DNA of 64,000 bases from Desulfovibrio sp. A2 (lineage in GTDB: Bacteria > Desulfobacterota > Desulfovibrionia > Desulfovibrionales > Desulfovibrionaceae): the NCBI RefSeq assembly GCF_000226255.1, contig NZ_AGFG01000058.1, forward strand, positions 1 to 64,000, read 5' to 3'. Of the stretch, positions 10,219 through 59,953 are shown piece by piece. The position numbers and the translations under genes are program-made. Below the pieces are notes generated by a model. The model made no database searches. It had not been told where the DNA came from and was given only the letters and a program-made list of their open reading frames with translations. Every line of letters begins with the position of its first letter. The first letter of the stretch is position 1.

Positions 10219-11961
10219 CTACAGGCTGTCCAGGAGCCTGTTGACGGGCTCGTCATGCACCCATGGGATCGTGGCGGTGTGGCCCGCGCTCAGCGCGTTG
10301 ACCTTGTTGATCCAGCCTGCTTCGGCGGTAGCCCTGTGGCGCAGTATGGAACTGTCCGTTTCAAGGCGCGAGAAGCACTGGTTGGCGACCCACCACTGGG
10401 TGTGAATGCCCGCGCGGCGCAAATCGGCTTGCAGCCTCTCTGCCTCGAAGACGGGGGTGGCCTCCGGAAGCGTGACGATGACGACTTCCGTTTGCCGCGG
10501 GTCGCGCAGCCTGGGAAGAAGGTTCCTAACGGAAGGCGGGATGATGCCCTTGGTCCGCTGCACTTCCTTGTGGTGGCTTTGGGTCGCGTCCAGCAGAAGC
10601 AGCGTATGGCCGGTGGGGGCGGTGTCGATGATGACGACTTCTTCATCGGCCTTGTCCACGATTTCGGCGAAAGCCCGGAATACGGCAATTTCCTGGGTGC
10701 AGGGCGAGCGCAGGTCTTCCTCGATATATGCGATGTCATCCTTGCTCATGACCTGCATTGCCGTGTCCAGCACCTCCTTGCGGTACCTGTGCAGTTCCTC
10801 CTGTTCGTCGATACGGCTCAGGGTGATGTTTGGCGAGCTTTTCATGATGGTTTGCAGATCGCTTGCCGGGTCGGTGGACGTAAGGTGCACCTTGGCTCCC
10901 TTTCTTGCCAGCCCCAGGGCGATGACCGCCGCGATGGTCGTCTTGCCCACGCCCCCCTTGCCCATGGTGAAGATGACCTTCTTTCCGGTGGCATGCAGAT
11001 CCGCGACAAGGTCGCCCAGCGTCCGGGTTTGTTCCGGATGCTCCACCGTGGCGGGCTGTGCCGGGTGCTTGCCGGTAAGGAAGGCACGGACGCCGTCCAG
11101 CCCGAGAATGTTGTAGGGCACGAGCGGAATCGCGTAGGTGCGGATTCCCGCCAGTTGCTGCGGAATGTTGCGCAGCGCAGCCTGCTGCTTCGCATGGAGT
11201 TTGCCTGAAACGGCGTCGGTGGGGTTTTCCAGGACGGCGTTGATGATGAGTATCTGGTTTTTTATTCCCAGGTCGCGCAGTTCCGCGCTGGAGCGGCCTG
11301 CCTCCTCCAAGGGCGCGGCATCCGGCCGGGACACCAGGACGAGTGTCGTTGCGGCGGCATCGCCCAGGGCGTCCACGGCGTGGCGGTACATGGCCTGCTT
11401 GCCTTCCAGCCCGGCAAGCTGCCCCAGGCACGAAGCGCCGTGCGTGCTTTCGCTGATGAAGGAACTCCACGCCGAGGGCAGTTGCAGCATGCGCAGGGTG
11501 TGGCCTGTCGGCGCGGTATCGAAAATGATGTGGTCGTATTCGCGGTTGATGGCGTCGTCCGTGAGAAACGTCGTGAACTGGTCGAACGCCGCTATCTCCA
11601 GGGTGCAGGATCCGGAGAGCTGTTCTTCCATGCTGGCGATGGCGCTGTCGGGCAATTTGCCCCTGTATGGCGCGACAACGGATTCCCGGTATTCCCGCGC
11701 GGCTTCTTCCGGGTCCAGGTTGGCGACCACCAGCCCGTCGACGCCGTGTATCGGAACACCACGGCCATCGAGTTCGGTGTTGAACACGTCTTGCAGGTTG
11801 GAAGCCGGGTCGGTGCTGATCAGCAGGATTCTTTTCCCCTGGTCGGCCAGCGTTACGGCAACGGCGCAGGCGACCGAGGTTTTTCCCACGCCGCCCTTGC
11901 CGGTGAAGAACAGGTATTTGGTCAGCGGCATCGAGCCAAGGTCGAACGGCGCGAACGTCAT
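10219..11961 (-). CDS. arsA: arsenite-stimulated ATPase ArsA
   Basis: Two-lobed pump ATPase, 580 residues (plasmid R773 ArsA has 583), normally energising ArsB-type arsenite export. Each half has a P-loop GKGGVGKT (residues 21-28 and again in the second half), a switch STDPAS and the signature DTAPTGHT. The three metalloid-binding cysteines of ArsA all have equivalents: GSCTLEIAAFD, HGASCLGQLAG and SPCTQEIAVF. The start is taken at ATG 11961, which follows GGAAGGA; an ATG at 11997, only 4 nt after the arsD stop, would add 12 residues. It is the last gene of arsR-arsD-arsA. No arsB or acr3 efflux gene follows, so the ATPase must act with a pump encoded elsewhere. Confidence 0.95.
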   Translation of the reverse strand: MTFAPFDLGSMPLTKYLFFTGKGGVGKTSVACAVAVTLADQGKRILLISTDPASNLQDVFNTELDGRGVPIHGVDGLVVANLDPEEAAREYRESVVAPYRGKLPDSAIASMEEQLSGSCTLEIAAFDQFTTFLTDDAINREYDHIIFDTAPTGHTLRMLQLPSAWSSFISESTHGASCLGQLAGLEGKQAMYRHAVDALGDAAATTLVLVSRPDAAPLEEAGRSSAELRDLGIKNQILIINAVLENPTDAVSGKLHAKQQAALRNIPQQLAGIRTYAIPLVPYNILGLDGVRAFLTGKHPAQPATVEHPEQTRTLGDLVADLHATGKKVIFTMGKGGVGKTTIAAVIALGLARKGAKVHLTSTDPASDLQTIMKSSPNITLSRIDEQEELHRYRKEVLDTAMQVMSKDDIAYIEEDLRSPCTQEIAVFRAFAEIVDKADEEVVIIDTAPTGHTLLLLDATQSHHKEVQRTKGIIPPSVRNLLPRLRDPRQTEVVIVTLPEATPVFEAERLQADLRRAGIHTQWWVANQCFSRLETDSSILRHRATAEAGWINKVNALSAGHTATIPWVHDEPVNRLLDSL

Positions 11962-54795: not shown

Positions 54796-54929
54796 CAAGG
54801 GCTGCGGAGCGGGCCGGGAGCCGGGCGGAAGCGCCGCAACCCGGCGGACGCTTTCCGGCAAGTGGTCGGCAAGCTGTGCAACCGTTGCGGACCTGCTCCG
54901 GGCATGTACGGAAATACAAGGAATCAGAT

Positions 54930-55456
54930 ATGGCTACCCACCACCTTACCACCCCCCTGACCGACGAGGCCGTGGCGCAACTGCGCAGCGGCGACGTGGT
55001 CTTTCTGTCCGGCACCATCTACACCGCGCGCGATGCGGCCCACCGCCGCCTTGCCGAATCGCTGGACCGGGGCGAAGGCCTGCCCTTCGACCTGCGCGGC
55101 GCGGTGATCTACTACGTTGGCCCCAGCCCGGCCCCGCCGGACGGCCCATCGGTTCCGCCGGTCCCACCACCAGCTACCGCATGGACAGCTACGCCCCGCG
55201 TCTGCACGCGCTGGGACTGAAGGCCACCATCGGCAAAGGGCGCCGCAATACCGAAGTGCGCGACGCCCTGAAAGAACATACCGCCGTCTACCTGGGGGCG
55301 ACAGGCGGCGCGGGCGCGTTGCTTTCGCAATGCATCACCGCTGCCACCGTCATCGCCTACGACGACCTTGGCCCGGAAGCCATACGGGAACTTACTGTGA
55401 AGGATTTTCCGTTGTTGGTGATTAATGACTGTGTGGGCGGGGAGTTATATGTGTAG
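54930..55456 (+). pseudogene. class I fumarate hydratase, beta subunit (frameshifted)
   Basis: The gene begins at ATG 54930 ([13 protein letters not shown]) and reads normally through [17 protein letters not shown]. It then leaves frame at 55139-55140, where CCGCCGGACGG appears; with GGG in place of GG the frame would read [18 protein letters not shown], the exact family signature. The rest, KATIGKGRRNTEV to INDCVGGELYV, lies in the other frame and ends at 55456. With the missing G restored the product would be 175 residues, a normal beta subunit. As written the first frame ends at 55220. A true mutation or a sequencing error in a G-run are both possible. The last about 20 codons are AT-rich, unlike the rest of the gene. 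Confidence 0.9.
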
Positions 55457-55469
55457 TGAGGTTGGTGAA

Positions 55470-55970
55470 TCACGCCTGTGGAGTGTCGAGGAGTAATTCA
55501 AACCAGGTATTCATGGTACGCTTTACGCAGTAGAGGATGTATAGAACGAGCATGATGTTTGTGGCGGCTGCAGAAATGCAAAGTGCTGCGGCAATATTGC
55601 TTTCGTTGAGTCCAATACTGAACTGTAGTACGCTTGTGATGATGCACGCAAGAACTGAAAATAGGAATAAATTTCCTATGTTCACAAGTGGAGTGTATAT
55701 GTTCTTTTTTGTATCGAATATTTCATTTTGAATTTTGCATTTTTCAATGTATTTTTCGTTTTCGAATAAATTCTTGTGCATTGTGAAGACAATCATTGTC
55801 ATCAAAGAAAGAATGAAGCTTCCTATCGTGAGAAACGATGTAAATAGATAGTGGCGCATGTTTTTTGAATATATGGAATATATATCAATACATAGACAAT
55901 CTGTTGTTTTGAATGCGACAGCCGTGAGTAGTGCTAGGGTGATAGCGTAGCTAGCGTATACTTTTTTCAT
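55470..55970 (-). CDS. AT-rich island: small membrane protein of unknown function
   Basis: 166 residues, not recognised. Four hydrophobic segments are visible: YAITLALLTAVAFKTT, YLFTSFLTIGSFILSLMTMI, NLFLFSVLACIITSVLQF and AAALCISAAATNIMLVLYIL. A charged cytosolic-looking loop with NLFENEKYIEKCKIQNE lies between spans 2 and 3. Codon use is strongly AT-rich, unlike neighbours, so horizontal transfer is likely. Its start overlaps the end of the 306-aa gene upstream by 20 bases, so the two are one operon. A small four-helix membrane protein paired with a soluble protein is the common form of effector/sensor pairs in phage defence; that role is inference only. Confidence 0.75.
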   Translation of the reverse strand: MKKVYASYAITLALLTAVAFKTTDCLCIDIYSIYSKNMRHYLFTSFLTIGSFILSLMTMIVFTMHKNLFENEKYIEKCKIQNEIFDTKKNIYTPLVNIGNLFLFSVLACIITSVLQFSIGLNESNIAAALCISAAATNIMLVLYILYCVKRTMNTWFELLLDTPQA

Positions 55971-56871
55971 TTTTTTTGAGTACTTGTTTGATCTTGTTTA
56001 GTGTTAACTTGAGTTCTGCGATAATTCGATTTTCAGAAATAGACCGATGCACGTCGTTGTGATTTAATCGCAGCGATGGCACGAAATCCTCGTATTCAAA
56101 AGTTGCAAAGCGATCGAAATCATTCATGAGTCTGTAGGTTATGTCGTTGCCATTTTCATCTATACCGGTGACGGTGGCTTTTTTGAGAGGGTTTTGTGTG
56201 AGAAGTGTTGTTAGGGCTCTGATTTTGTTTTTTTTACGTGCGCCTTTAAGGAATGACAAAAGATGCTTATGCCCCCTTAGGAAAGGGTTGAGGGGCGCAA
56301 AAGTGTCTTGTTCTGGTGCTATTGCTTGAAATTCAAATTCAATACGCGCGACATCATTCATAGCCTTTACGCGCTCTATGAAAGTCCCTTCTCTCTCAAT
56401 AATTCTGTATTCTAATTTTCCGGTGTAGCTTTTTGCGATTTTCTTTTTTTGAGCATCATTGTCAATGTCTTTTAATCTTTGACGTAGCAATTCGCGACGT
56501 TGCGCATCGTACCTCTTGGAGTTTATAAAATTAAAAGTATTGAGCGAGCAGGAATGATGGTAGTGTTGGTACATTCCGTATCCAGACTGTGAATCAATAG
56601 TGAAAAAATTAAAGTCGGCAACTTGCTCGTTGCGCTGTAGCTGATGGATTTCAAGGTTTACTTCTTGCTTGTTTCTGACAAGTTTGCAGAATTTTCGCAT
56701 GTCTTTTATAGTTAGAATGACACCAGATACATGCTGTCCTTCGTTGATGATATACGTCGATCTGCTATTCGACAAAATGCCATTTTGGGTGATGTTTGCC
56801 TTTAAAAAGGCATCCATCGTCAATTTGGAGCAGGTTGGTTCCCAAGCAAACGCTTGAAATGTTATAATCAT
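55951..56871 (-). CDS. AT-rich island: soluble protein of unknown function
   Basis: 306 residues, not recognised. No membrane segment and no convincing signal peptide. N-terminal mixed strands (QHVSGVILTIKDMRKF, VNLEIHQLQRNEQVADFNFF) are followed by a GYGMYQHYHHSCSLNTF stretch with a His/Tyr cluster, a long basic helix (RYDAQRRELLRQRLKDID) and a Lys-rich C-terminus (KLTLNKIKQVLKKNEK). A strand-rich N-terminal half and basic C-terminal half would fit a nucleic-acid-binding or sensor protein. First gene of the two-gene AT-rich unit; a promoter-like pair lies at 56910-56939. It has no close tie to fumarase or the gene at 56951. Confidence 0.75.
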   Translation of the reverse strand: MIITFQAFAWEPTCSKLTMDAFLKANITQNGILSNSRSTYIINEGQHVSGVILTIKDMRKFCKLVRNKQEVNLEIHQLQRNEQVADFNFFTIDSQSGYGMYQHYHHSCSLNTFNFINSKRYDAQRRELLRQRLKDIDNDAQKKKIAKSYTGKLEYRIIEREGTFIERVKAMNDVARIEFEFQAIAPEQDTFAPLNPFLRGHKHLLSFLKGARKKNKIRALTTLLTQNPLKKATVTGIDENGNDITYRLMNDFDRFATFEYEDFVPSLRLNHNDVHRSISENRIIAELKLTLNKIKQVLKKNEKSIR

Positions 56872-56909
56872 GACATGCTAACCTGTTTGTTTTAGGTTTA
56901 TATTTATCC

Positions 56910-56939
56910 ATAATAGCATTTGTGTGTGGCAAAGAGCAA
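56910..56939 (-). promoter_or_regulatory. candidate promoter of the island operon
   Basis: Minus strand TTGCTC (56939-56934), 18-bp spacer, TATTAT (56915-56910), about 40 nt before the ATG at 56871. Confidence 0.4.
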
Positions 56940-56950
56940 GAAGGAAATGT

Positions 56951-58228
56951 ATGCCCTTTGAAACGCAAATTTTATTTGATCCTACTCCCGCCGACGGCGT
57001 AGCCCCCGACAACTACCACGCCACGTCCATCTATCCGGAGTTCGTGCAGGTAGAGCCGGGGCGCTGGGTGTTGCTTGCGGAATCGCGCATGGATTGCGTC
57101 ATCCGCAAGAACCCGGACGGCACGCTGGAGGTGGTGGAGTTCCGGCGGCTGAAAAAGGGCAATCTGGTGGCGGTGGGCCGGGGCGAAAACGGCGAGGACG
57201 GCATTTACGTGCATGCCGGGCCGCTGGACCAGTTACCGGATTTTCTGGCCGGGTGGACTCCGGCCAACGTGCCTGCCCCTGTGGTTGGCAGCATGGTTGG
57301 CCCCGTGTCTGGTCCCATGGCTGGCCCCGTGGCGGCCTCCACGTCTGCGGATATGCAACCGTCAACTTTACAGGCAGACAGCCCAGAGGCGGAAAGCCCC
57401 GCCGCCCCGTCCGCCCATTCCGCTCATTCCGCATCCTCCGCCCTGCCTTCCCCTGCCGCCCCTGCCGACAAGTTCGCCTTCCGTACCGGCGTCAGCCGCG
57501 AAACGTCCTTCTCGCTCGACTACGACACACTGTACGAAGTGCTGCGCCACGACAGGGGCAATGGCCACATCGTGTGGGTGGCCGGGCCTGCCGTGGTGTT
57601 CGATGCCGACGCCCGCCGCGCCTTTGCCGGGCTGATCGACGCGGGCTACGTGCACGCCCTGCTGGCGGGCAACGCCCTTGCCACGCACGACGTGGAGGCC
57701 GCCCTGTACGGCACCGCGCTGGGGCAGGGCCTGTACGACAAGCGGCAGGCCCCGCGCGGGCACTACCACCATCTGGACGCCATCAACACCATCCGGGGCT
57801 GCGGGTCCATCCGCGCCGCCGTGCAGTCGGGCCGCGTGCGCGACGGGGTGATGCACGCGCTGGAAACGCGCGGGGTGCCCTACGTGCTGGCCGGGTCCAT
57901 CCGCGACGACGGCCCCCTGCCGGAAGTCATCGCCGACGTGTACGCCGCGCAAGACGCCATGCGCGCCCACGTGCGCCGCGCCACCACGGTGGTGGCCCTT
58001 GCCACCGCGCTGCACACCATCGCCACCGGCAACATGACCCCCTCGTATCAGGCCGGGCCGGGGGGCAGTCTGCGGCCGGTGCATTTCTTCATCGCGGACA
58101 TTTCGGAATTCGCGGCGGGCAAGCTGGCCGACCGTGGCTCGCTGACCTCGCGCTCCATCCTCACCAACGTGCAGGACTTCGTGGTCAACGTGCACCGGGC
58201 GCTTACCGGTGCGTGCCGCACGGAGTAG
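56951..58228 (+). CDS. TIGR00300 / LOR-SDH-family protein (ornithine cyclodeaminase-like, possible nickel-pincer enzyme)
   Basis: 425 residues. The N-terminal about 90 residues match the MDCVI and KKGNLVAVG region of the archaeal LOR/SDH-like family. A Pro/Ala/Ser-rich linker of about 80 residues follows (about 95-175). The C-terminal domain is close to the archaeal proteins: VAGPAVVFDADA, LLAGNALATHDVEAALYGTALG, RGHYHHLDAINTIRGCGSI, YVLAGSIRDDGPLPEVI and TALHTIATGNMTPSY. Archaeal members are described as ornithine cyclodeaminases that depend on the nickel-pincer nucleotide. That assignment is family-based. The separate LOR/SDH N-terminal domain of longer members is missing. ATG 56951 follows AAGGAAATGT. 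The first about ten codons are AT-rich, then the composition changes. Confidence 0.8.
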   Translation: MPFETQILFDPTPADGVAPDNYHATSIYPEFVQVEPGRWVLLAESRMDCVIRKNPDGTLEVVEFRRLKKGNLVAVGRGENGEDGIYVHAGPLDQLPDFLAGWTPANVPAPVVGSMVGPVSGPMAGPVAASTSADMQPSTLQADSPEAESPAAPSAHSAHSASSALPSPAAPADKFAFRTGVSRETSFSLDYDTLYEVLRHDRGNGHIVWVAGPAVVFDADARRAFAGLIDAGYVHALLAGNALATHDVEAALYGTALGQGLYDKRQAPRGHYHHLDAINTIRGCGSIRAAVQSGRVRDGVMHALETRGVPYVLAGSIRDDGPLPEVIADVYAAQDAMRAHVRRATTVVALATALHTIATGNMTPSYQAGPGGSLRPVHFFIADISEFAAGKLADRGSLTSRSILTNVQDFVVNVHRALTGACRTE

Positions 58229-58522
58229 CCTGCCGTTCCGGGCCTGTTCTGGGCGTGTCGGGGCGTGTTGGCGGGCCGTGCCGTCCGGCCCGTTGCGGCG
58301 GGTGAATGCCCGTTGCCGTTCCGCCGCGTGCGCCGTGCCGCCCGCTCGTCTCCTCCTCCTTCCCTTCCTTCCTGGCCTCTTTCCCCCCTGTCCTGCACTT
58401 CGCGCATGCCGCGTGTTTCCGGCGTGTTTCCGGTTCGTCAAGCCGCTTGCAAAGGTGTGGCCCCGCTTTGCGTGGGGCTACGCTTCTTGATACGCATTTC
58501 ACTATCATTACACATAGTTATT
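58229..58522. other. spacer after the TIGR00300 gene
   Basis: No supported gene. A hairpin GGCCCC...GGGGCT at about 58459-58482 followed by ACGCTTCTT may be a weak terminator. From about 58490 the sequence becomes AT-rich and leads into a sigma-28 promoter. Confidence 0.45.
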
Positions 58523-58549
58523 TAAGTATCTCGCACGCCGCGCCGATAG
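58523..58549 (+). promoter_or_regulatory. sigma-28 (FliA) promoter 1
   Basis: TAAG (58523-58526), 15-bp spacer, GCCGATAG (58542-58549). Agrees with the flagellar consensus TAAA-N15-GCCGATAA at 10 of 12 positions. Leader of about 35 nt to the gene at 58592. Confidence 0.8.
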
Positions 58550-58591
58550 GAAGGGTGCAACACAACGCATGCCGCGTTGGAAGGAGGCACC

Positions 58592-59116
58592 ATGATGGAA
58601 GGCATCGGCACCGCGCAGGGGCTGTTGGGCCTTGGCGGCTTCACCCAGGCAACGGGAACGGCAGCGACCGGTTCCACCACGTCCGGCGCAACCACGTCAG
58701 GCACCGAAACAACCACAACCAGCAGCGGCGACACCGTGTCCATCTCGGACGAGGCGCGCCGCAAGGCGGCCCAATCGTCGGAATCCTCCGGCAGTTCGGA
58801 CGCGTCGCAGGCCCTGCAAGACGACGTCTCGCAGGCGGACATCTCGGCGGCGGAATCCGAGGTGTCGTCACTGCGCCAGAGCCTTAGCGATGCTGAGGAC
58901 GAACTGGCCGAATTGCAGGATGACACCGACATGGACGAGGAGACCAAACAGGAACAGGTCCAGCTGATGCAGGCCAAGATTACCATGCTGGAAAGCCAAG
59001 TATCGCAGGCCGTGACCGAAAAGTCCGAGCTGGAGAAGCAGCAGCAGGAGGCCGAGCAGGGCGGCGGCAACGCATCCGCCACCAACACGGCCGAGGCGGA
59101 AACCGGCGAGGAATAG
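58592..59116 (+). CDS. coiled-coil protein under sigma-28 control (paralogue 1)
   Basis: 174 residues, not recognised. A Gly/Ala/Thr/Ser-rich N-terminus (about 1-45) leads to a conserved GDTVSISDEARRKAAQ (about 45-60), then a predicted long coiled coil from about 75 to 155 with heptads such as LRQSLSDAEDELAELQDD and QVQLMQAKITMLESQVSQ (18 and 18 residues), and a Gly/Ala/Glu tail. Very acidic, no cysteine, no signal peptide. The start is ATG 58592 with GGAAGGAGG 5 nt upstream; an ATG at 58577 overlaps this site. It shares the DTVSIS motif, coiled coil and promoter type with the gene at 59471. A late flagellar or chemotaxis-linked role is inferred from the promoter only. Confidence 0.75.
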   Translation: MMEGIGTAQGLLGLGGFTQATGTAATGSTTSGATTSGTETTTTSSGDTVSISDEARRKAAQSSESSGSSDASQALQDDVSQADISAAESEVSSLRQSLSDAEDELAELQDDTDMDEETKQEQVQLMQAKITMLESQVSQAVTEKSELEKQQQEAEQGGGNASATNTAEAETGEE

Positions 59117-59404
59117 CGGGCCAGCGGCCACGCCGCATGCCGCGCGGCGGGCCGACGAGAGACGGGACACGCATTTTCCGTGGCGGGGCCACGGATGCAG
59201 CGCGGCAACCGGACCAGACACACGCCATGTGCACGCTCAAGGACGCGGCCCATGCTTCGGCAGGGGCCGTGTTCGCGTTTACGGGTGCTCGCGTGTGGTT
59301 GATATATGGCTGGCGTGCAGAGGGTGAGGCAGAAGGGGGAGGAGAGCAATATTCAGAAATCGCGAGCAGTGTTGTGGTGTGCAACGAAATGTGAGTGTGT
59401 GCCA
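59117..59404. other. spacer between the two coiled-coil paralogues
   Basis: No supported gene. GC-rich first half, then AT-rich from about 59330 before the second sigma-28 promoter. Confidence 0.45.
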
Positions 59405-59470: not shown

Positions 59471-59953
59471 ATGGTCGAAGCACTGGACGGAACCCAGGTC
59501 GGCACCGCCTACAGCACCTTGCAGGTGCAGGCGGGCACGGAACGCACGGGCACGTTGCGCACCGCGTCCACGGATGCTGCGGAAAGCGGCGGCGACACCG
59601 TGTCCATTTCCGAGGAAGGGCGGCAGAAGGCGGCGGGCATGGCCAGCAGCGGCGCTGGCGGTTCGCAATCCACCGGGGAAACGGACGACAGCGACGAATT
59701 GGCATCGTTGAAGGAACAGATTCAGAACCTGCGCGAACAGATCAAGGAGAAGCAGCAGGAAATGGAAGAAATCCAGCAAGATGCCAGCCTTGATGACGAG
59801 CAGCGGCAACAGCAGGTGGCCATGAAGATGTCCGAAATCTCCATGCTCCAGAGCCAGCTGACGGAACTGCTGGACCAGAAGGCCAAGCTGGAGTCGGCCA
59901 GCGGAGATTCCGGCTCGTCCGGCGGCGCTGCCGGGGTGAGCATCAACGTGTAG
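59471..59953 (+). CDS. coiled-coil protein under sigma-28 control (paralogue 2)
   Basis: 160 residues. It shows the same plan as the gene at 58592: a polar N-terminus, the motif GDTVSISEEGRQKAAG (about 41-56), a coiled coil from about 75 to 140 (LKEQIQNLREQIKEKQQEME, then QVAMKMSEISMLQSQLTELL) and a Gly/Ser tail. Acidic, no cysteine, no signal peptide. ATG 59471 follows AAAGGAGG by 4-5 nt. The common motif DTVSIS followed by a short basic helix also occurs in other small flagellum-associated proteins, but no named family is recognised. The near-perfect FliA promoter makes it a member of the late flagellar regulon. Export through the flagellar apparatus or a role as a regulator or chaperone are open options. 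Confidence 0.78.
   Translation: MVEALDGTQVGTAYSTLQVQAGTERTGTLRTASTDAAESGGDTVSISEEGRQKAAGMASSGAGGSQSTGETDDSDELASLKEQIQNLREQIKEKQQEMEEIQQDASLDDEQRQQQVAMKMSEISMLQSQLTELLDQKAKLESASGDSGSSGGAAGVSINV

Follow-up and report, generated by a model that had tools for sequence, protein, structure and literature searches.

A probable RexAB-type phage exclusion pair in a variable chromosomal slot of Desulfovibrio sp. A2

What is a strongly AT-rich pair of overlapping genes doing between metabolic genes in GC-rich Desulfovibrio DNA? The pair lies in a 64,000-nucleotide stretch of Desulfovibrio sp. A2 (contig NZ_AGFG01000058.1, positions 1 to 64,000; the "window"), and both genes are on the minus strand. One encodes a 306-residue soluble protein (P0001, 55951 to 56871), here called the sensor, and the other a 166-residue membrane protein (P0002, 55470 to 55970), the putative effector. 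An earlier note on this DNA, made from the letters alone, had suggested a defence module composed of a soluble sensor and a small membrane effector, set between metabolic genes and belonging to no recognised family. Our results support that suggestion, and we consider it likely that the pair is a RexAB-type two-component abortive-infection (phage exclusion) module.

The frames were found as the note had described them, with 20 shared nucleotides (55951 to 55970, minus strand) through which the two genes may be translationally coupled; several homologous pairs (for example, L004) overlap by 4 nucleotides. The AT-richness also stands: guanine-plus-cytosine (GC) content is 38.7% in the two-gene stretch versus a window mean of 68.3%, and none of 1,193 other 1.4-kb positions of the window falls below 58.49%. 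The longest open frame of the stretch runs 308 codons from stop to stop and is longer than that of all 1,000 single-base shuffles (maximum 170). Both frames are considered real genes because both proteins have homologues, 30 for the sensor besides P0001 and four others for the membrane protein (one more entry is a fragment of the query itself). The promoter-like pair that the note had assigned to the unit did not hold up. Promoter-like sites in the stretch are at chance level (4 observed, shuffle mean 3.8), none lies on the minus strand upstream of the sensor gene, and both minus-strand sites are inside that gene. The region upstream of the sensor gene (56872 to 56986, minus strand, 33.9% GC) is presumed to carry the promoter.

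Neither protein could be assigned to a characterised family. P0001 and P0002 matched no Pfam or NCBIfam family above cut-off and nothing in PADLOC at E ≤ 10, and profile searching of PDB sequences yielded no significant hit for the pair (one family search was read as the best 25 of 43 weak families). The confident family match of the sensor is phrog_2802 (E = 1.6e-25), which was absent from 14 named control genomes, and a second, shorter match is to phrog_29079 (E = 8.4e-11); both are annotated "unknown function". No catalytic motif was recognised in the sensor. The most conserved part of its family is the motif DFNFF...G.G.YQ.Y..SCS at codons 86 to 109 (56545 to 56616, minus strand), where columns are invariant or nearly so in alignments A1, A4 and A10.

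An AlphaFold2 model of the sensor (predicted local distance difference test, pLDDT, 87.5) has a seven-stranded N-terminal domain, an alpha/beta second domain and a C-terminal helix, with the two-domain layout of RexA. Its best fold match is lambda RexA. Escherichia coli RdgC is the second-best PDB match (E = 1.3e-4) and scores below RexA in both fold comparisons. At the level of sequence, PF15969 (RexA) and DUF4747 were not among the 24 Pfam families found at E ≤ 1 for 31 members scanned; as a positive control, lambda RexA matched PF15969 with an E value of 1.4e-96. Comparisons to RexA and RexB by BLASTP, to a single RexA or RexB sequence by hhalign, and to five RexA sequences by hhalign were not significant, nor was an hhalign comparison of the sensor family versus 21 RexA sequences (lambda RexA and 20 of the 41 found; E = 0.044). 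The RexA alignments hold the expected register over the first 100 residues, which is suggestive only. Isoelectric points of sensors range from 4.9 to 9.6 (n = 49; P0001, 9.6) and those of the RexA family from 5.8 to 8.8 (n = 21). Due to this wide spread, charge argues neither for nor against DNA binding by the sensor.

The membrane protein is predicted to be a small four-helix protein with a charged central loop. Its AlphaFold2 model (pLDDT 86.7) contains long helices at residues 2–26, 30–67, 93–121 and 125–160 and a short helix at 72–85. A conserved core extends into the central loop (codons 34 to 74; 55749 to 55871, minus strand) and includes the invariant residues Y34, R39, F43, F52 and Y74 (alignments A3, A5 and A8). 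Counts of lysine plus arginine, with helix limits set by hand, favour an orientation in which both termini and the central loop are inside (mean 10.6 versus 2.4 outside); acidic residues are nearly as numerous as basic ones in the central loop and C-terminus. PF15968 (RexB) was not matched, the sole Pfam match of P0002 being Ost5 (E = 0.29), and hhalign of the membrane family versus four RexB sequences was not significant (E = 0.33). Fold searches with this protein were uninformative, with none named RexB among the best 50 rows of each.

The two genes travel together. A non-exhaustive scan for two short peptide patterns in 84,980 species' genomes yielded 19 loci, among them (by record title) Desulfocurvus, Desulforapulum, Geobacter, Alteromonas, Nitrosomonas, Planctomycetota and a metagenome-assembled genome of Flavobacteriaceae. 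At 18 of these, the sensor gene is followed on its own strand by a member of the small membrane protein family; locus L020 ends at a contig edge, and the L021 sensor is truncated or broken where its contig starts. The partner is also present at all 15 loci from viral contigs, and a further viral scan returned 11 loci and no new one. Note that two viral loci (L059 and L061) and two genome loci (L008 and L015) seem to represent the same elements, so the two sets are not independent. In two lambdoid phage records, and in one E. coli genome looked at, the pair is flanked by antiterminator Q on one side and methyltransferase/lysis genes on the other; in the phage records it is oriented opposite to most surrounding genes. 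A form of it occurs in 218 of 5,426 complete E. coli genomes (222 places, all chromosomal), with at least 99% identity in 217 records and 76% in one; the proteins are "hypothetical" among the rows listed. The 76% variant (NZ_CP134805.1, 2814015–2815458) offers a natural comparison for the prophage pair. The plasmid collection gave no match to the family.

Of 348 genomes in the class to which the window belongs, 5 have a match, the source genome being one of them. The weakest match, a partial one to a 278-residue protein (L029:1072–2464, genome G194; E = 1.4e-4 over sensor positions 161–249), is the one exception to pairing among loci where the contig extends far enough to tell: the next protein, of 192 residues with hydrophobic stretches, is unrelated to the partner family, and the two are possibly another Rex-like pair. 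With this patchy distribution and the pairing, the two genes look accessory and horizontally spread, not part of the core genome. The earlier note had named two outcomes that would speak against its proposal, and neither was seen. Homologues are not always single, core-genome genes near fumarase, which adjoins the pair at the window copy only among the loci checked, and no housekeeping family matched either protein. At L018 the membrane gene is shortened (10942–11743) and followed by frames that we take to resemble transposase, and the sensor end of P0028 also runs into similar unrelated residues; these look like transposase insertions, as though the module were at times inactivated.

The note had also proposed looking for the same pair in defence islands of unrelated genomes. 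Around the genome loci, the neighbouring genes give a mixed signal, judged without a background set. Among the genome loci, 112 of 144 neighbouring open reading frames were scanned, leaving out 20 at L008 and L015 (also in viral contigs) and 12 that were short or doubtful. PADLOC matches (best 25 of 100 families) include models hit by one member each: restriction-methyltransferases of type IIG and of type I, which may be the same protein, as well as type I specificity, type II/DruM methylase and dCTPase models. Pfam matches (best 25 of 104 families) include Phage_integrase with three members, PIN with two and many metabolic families. At L013:3028–3771, in the Flavobacteriaceae genome, the pair is immediately followed by what by eye is an apparent type I restriction subunit.

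At the window copy, the whole variable segment (55457 to 56986) is bounded on the left by a plus-strand gene (54882 to 55456, start approximate) that we take by eye to encode the beta subunit of fumarase, and that is conserved to its last codons. On the right is a plus-strand ArgZ-like gene (56987 to 58228; PF21570, E = 1.9e-66), with homology beginning inside its 5' end. In a genus sample of 8 genomes, own included, both flanks are on one contig in seven (G000, G001 and G003 to G007); no junction was seen in G002, which is 75% complete. Each of the six comparable genomes either lacks the window's segment or has another in its place. One slot is empty (G003, 77 bp between flanks), and the other six genomes hold 981 to 2,278 bp of 36.8–42.4% GC, with six cargoes that are mutually dissimilar (blastn E 1e-3, blastp E 1e-2). 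The same flanks enclose six different cargoes, of which two, besides the window's, match PADLOC systems. G005 carries PARIS (AriA, 3.1e-33; AriB, 1.6e-31), and G006 carries a UG17 reverse transcriptase (3.8e-118) with its associated SLATT protein (1.1e-27), both under DRT in PADLOC. The G001 cargo has a weak effector match to a TIR model (5.7e-7) and one to Nuc_deoxyrib_tr (0.0041) below its cut-off. No convincing match was obtained for the G004 and G007 cargoes, the best for G004 being a Cas12f model (0.004).

Homology returns no more than 8 bases from the same two points in every comparison within the genus. The flanks shared with each genome, ∼11 to 18 kb long, served as a control: they contain one other window gap of at least 0.9 kb (∼58227–59383, in three of six relatives), and elsewhere unmatched stretches of relatives are at most 0.53 kb. 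There is no tRNA near the window cassette and no terminal repeat at its ends, the ends of the relatives' cassettes being judged by eye only; no integrase was recognised among the cargo genes scanned. In 11 genomes of other genera, no fumarase beta match was found within 1.5 kb of the ArgZ-like homologue, and the slot has therefore been seen in this genus alone so far. Because fumarase is a neighbour of the pair at the window copy only, among the loci checked, it is the slot, rather than fumarase, with which the pair is associated. The slot resembles published core defence hotspots in miniature: like cDHS1 and cDHS2 of Pseudomonas aeruginosa, as described in PMC10250203, it has conserved flanks, strain-specific immune systems and lower GC content, but unlike them it takes a single small cassette of 1.0–2.3 kb with no recognised integrase, in the seven genomes compared.

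How does the pair compare to known Rex systems? It shares with lambda RexA/RexB two adjacent genes, a soluble protein of predicted RexA fold, a small four-helix membrane protein and, in some relatives, carriage by temperate phages. Unlike the lambda genes, neither window protein has a significant sequence-profile match to them, the family has its own invariant motif (DFNFF...YQ.Y..SC), and no CI-type repressor adjoins the window copy, the two phage records or the one E. coli genome looked at. RexABpp of Pseudomonas putida (PP_5643/PP_5644) is a two-gene phage defence system that combines a RexA-fold protein able to bind DNA with a four-helix effector in the membrane, which curbs growth when the sensor is overexpressed (PMC12894663). 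According to the same paper, binding between its two proteins was not shown and the sensor in trans failed to restore defence; BLAST missed the system, and HHpred found RexA at 98% probability and missed the membrane protein. Unlike the window pair, RexABpp is prophage-borne and lies downstream of a CI-like repressor (PMC12894663). When seven published RexABpp residues were checked in 12 partner proteins, at most three agreed. Sbash gp30/gp31 and CarolAnn gp44/gp43 also combine, by description, a sensor with a four-helix membrane protein, but unlike the 31 members of the window family scanned they carry DUF4747, and they have Actinobacteria as hosts. The central cytoplasmic loop of Sbash gp31 is important, and a larger family of rexAB-like systems was foreseen (PMC6426596).

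By analogy with the lambda, Sbash and P. putida systems, we propose that the sensor detects a phage-made signal and then engages the membrane protein, the central loop being the likeliest point of contact. Conserved pairing, the predicted sensor fold, the four-helix prediction and the variable slot are computed results; what we infer for the window pair is that the sensor dimerises, binds DNA, responds to a trigger and activates the membrane protein, with growth arrest and an anti-phage effect as the outcome. The sensor, with a split globular domain and a second domain (dimer-making in RexA), would recognise something made by the phage, such as replication or recombination DNA–protein complexes. 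Once engaged, it would act on the four-helix protein in the inner membrane, which may open or oligomerise, so that the membrane is compromised, growth stops and the infection is aborted. The module was probably acquired horizontally as an AT-rich cassette that entered the fumarase/ArgZ-like slot, which other species of the genus fill with other cargo, including some known defence systems.

The roles of the two proteins could be the reverse of those in lambda. In a toxin–antitoxin-like arrangement, the effector role, antiviral or toxic, would fall to the soluble protein, and the membrane protein would hold it in check, as in the mycobacteriophage Butters system, where roles are reversed (PMC12894663). 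The pairing data are silent on which partner is the effector. We nevertheless consider this unlikely, given that the membrane protein is the described effector in the lambda, Sbash, CarolAnn and P. putida systems (PMC12894663), that RexABpp is the closest experimental parallel by fold, and that the sensor lacks a recognised catalytic motif. Less probable still is an RdgC-related pair that functions in recombination or DNA metabolism, with a membrane anchor and no primary role in defence. RdgC is a core recombination protein and its fold ranks second for the sensor; however, RexA outscores it, we know of no membrane partner for RdgC, and defence better fits the patchiness of the family, its carriage by prophages and a slot shared with PARIS and UG17 reverse transcriptase. 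A lysis–lysogeny regulator, or stray prophage cargo with no present role in the host, is the least probable of all: relatives do occur in lambdoid phages and 15 viral contigs, and the CI/Cro switch is a further target of lambda RexA (PMC11077077), but no phage genes were seen directly beside the window copy, both frames are intact, two of the five other filled sites hold PADLOC-listed systems and not phage remnants, and the repressor does not adjoin the E. coli copies looked at.

Systems of this kind have been described before; what is new, as far as searched, is the sequence family, together with its chromosomal setting and breadth. No description of the family or of the fumarase/ArgZ-like hotspot was found in open-licence literature, and no paper was found under WP_000868396.1 or WP_001531322.1 (the E. 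coli pair) or under the PHROG name. Five RexAB-like systems have been described by the count of PMC12894663. We tentatively offer a broader picture, to which we give slightly less than even chances: a large unnamed RexAB-type branch spanning several phyla and ∼4% of complete E. coli genomes, working as a prophage passenger and also independently on the chromosome. Within the genus, it would be one of several interchangeable defence cassettes, swapped without integrase to within a few bases into the slot, probably via recombination in the conserved flanks, and the invariant motif would be a trigger- or partner-binding site that is missing from lambda RexA.

How phages activate RexAB has been unexplained since Benzer's work on T4 rII. 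About thirty divergent pairs provide covariation and mutational handles beyond the single lambda sequence, and the E. coli relative places the family within reach of standard phage panels. The slot is a simple place for finding further defence cassettes in the genus, including the two cargoes of no known family. Those of G004 (L052:1756–2781, 342 residues) and G007 (L055:1953–2867, 305 residues), which have no Pfam or NCBIfam match, are by location candidate new single-gene defence proteins; the latter ends in an RNDFAH stretch that we take to be reminiscent of HEPN motifs.

Two minor observations concern neighbouring genes. The fumarase beta frame seems to be broken into two overlapping frames, one ending at 55220 and the other starting by 55181, which appears to be either a sequencing error or a real break. 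On the far side of the ArgZ-like gene, 58577–59116 and 59471–59953 are neighbouring genes for small coiled proteins that are similar by eye, and the first of them lies inside the ∼58227–59383 stretch that is largely missing in three of six relatives.
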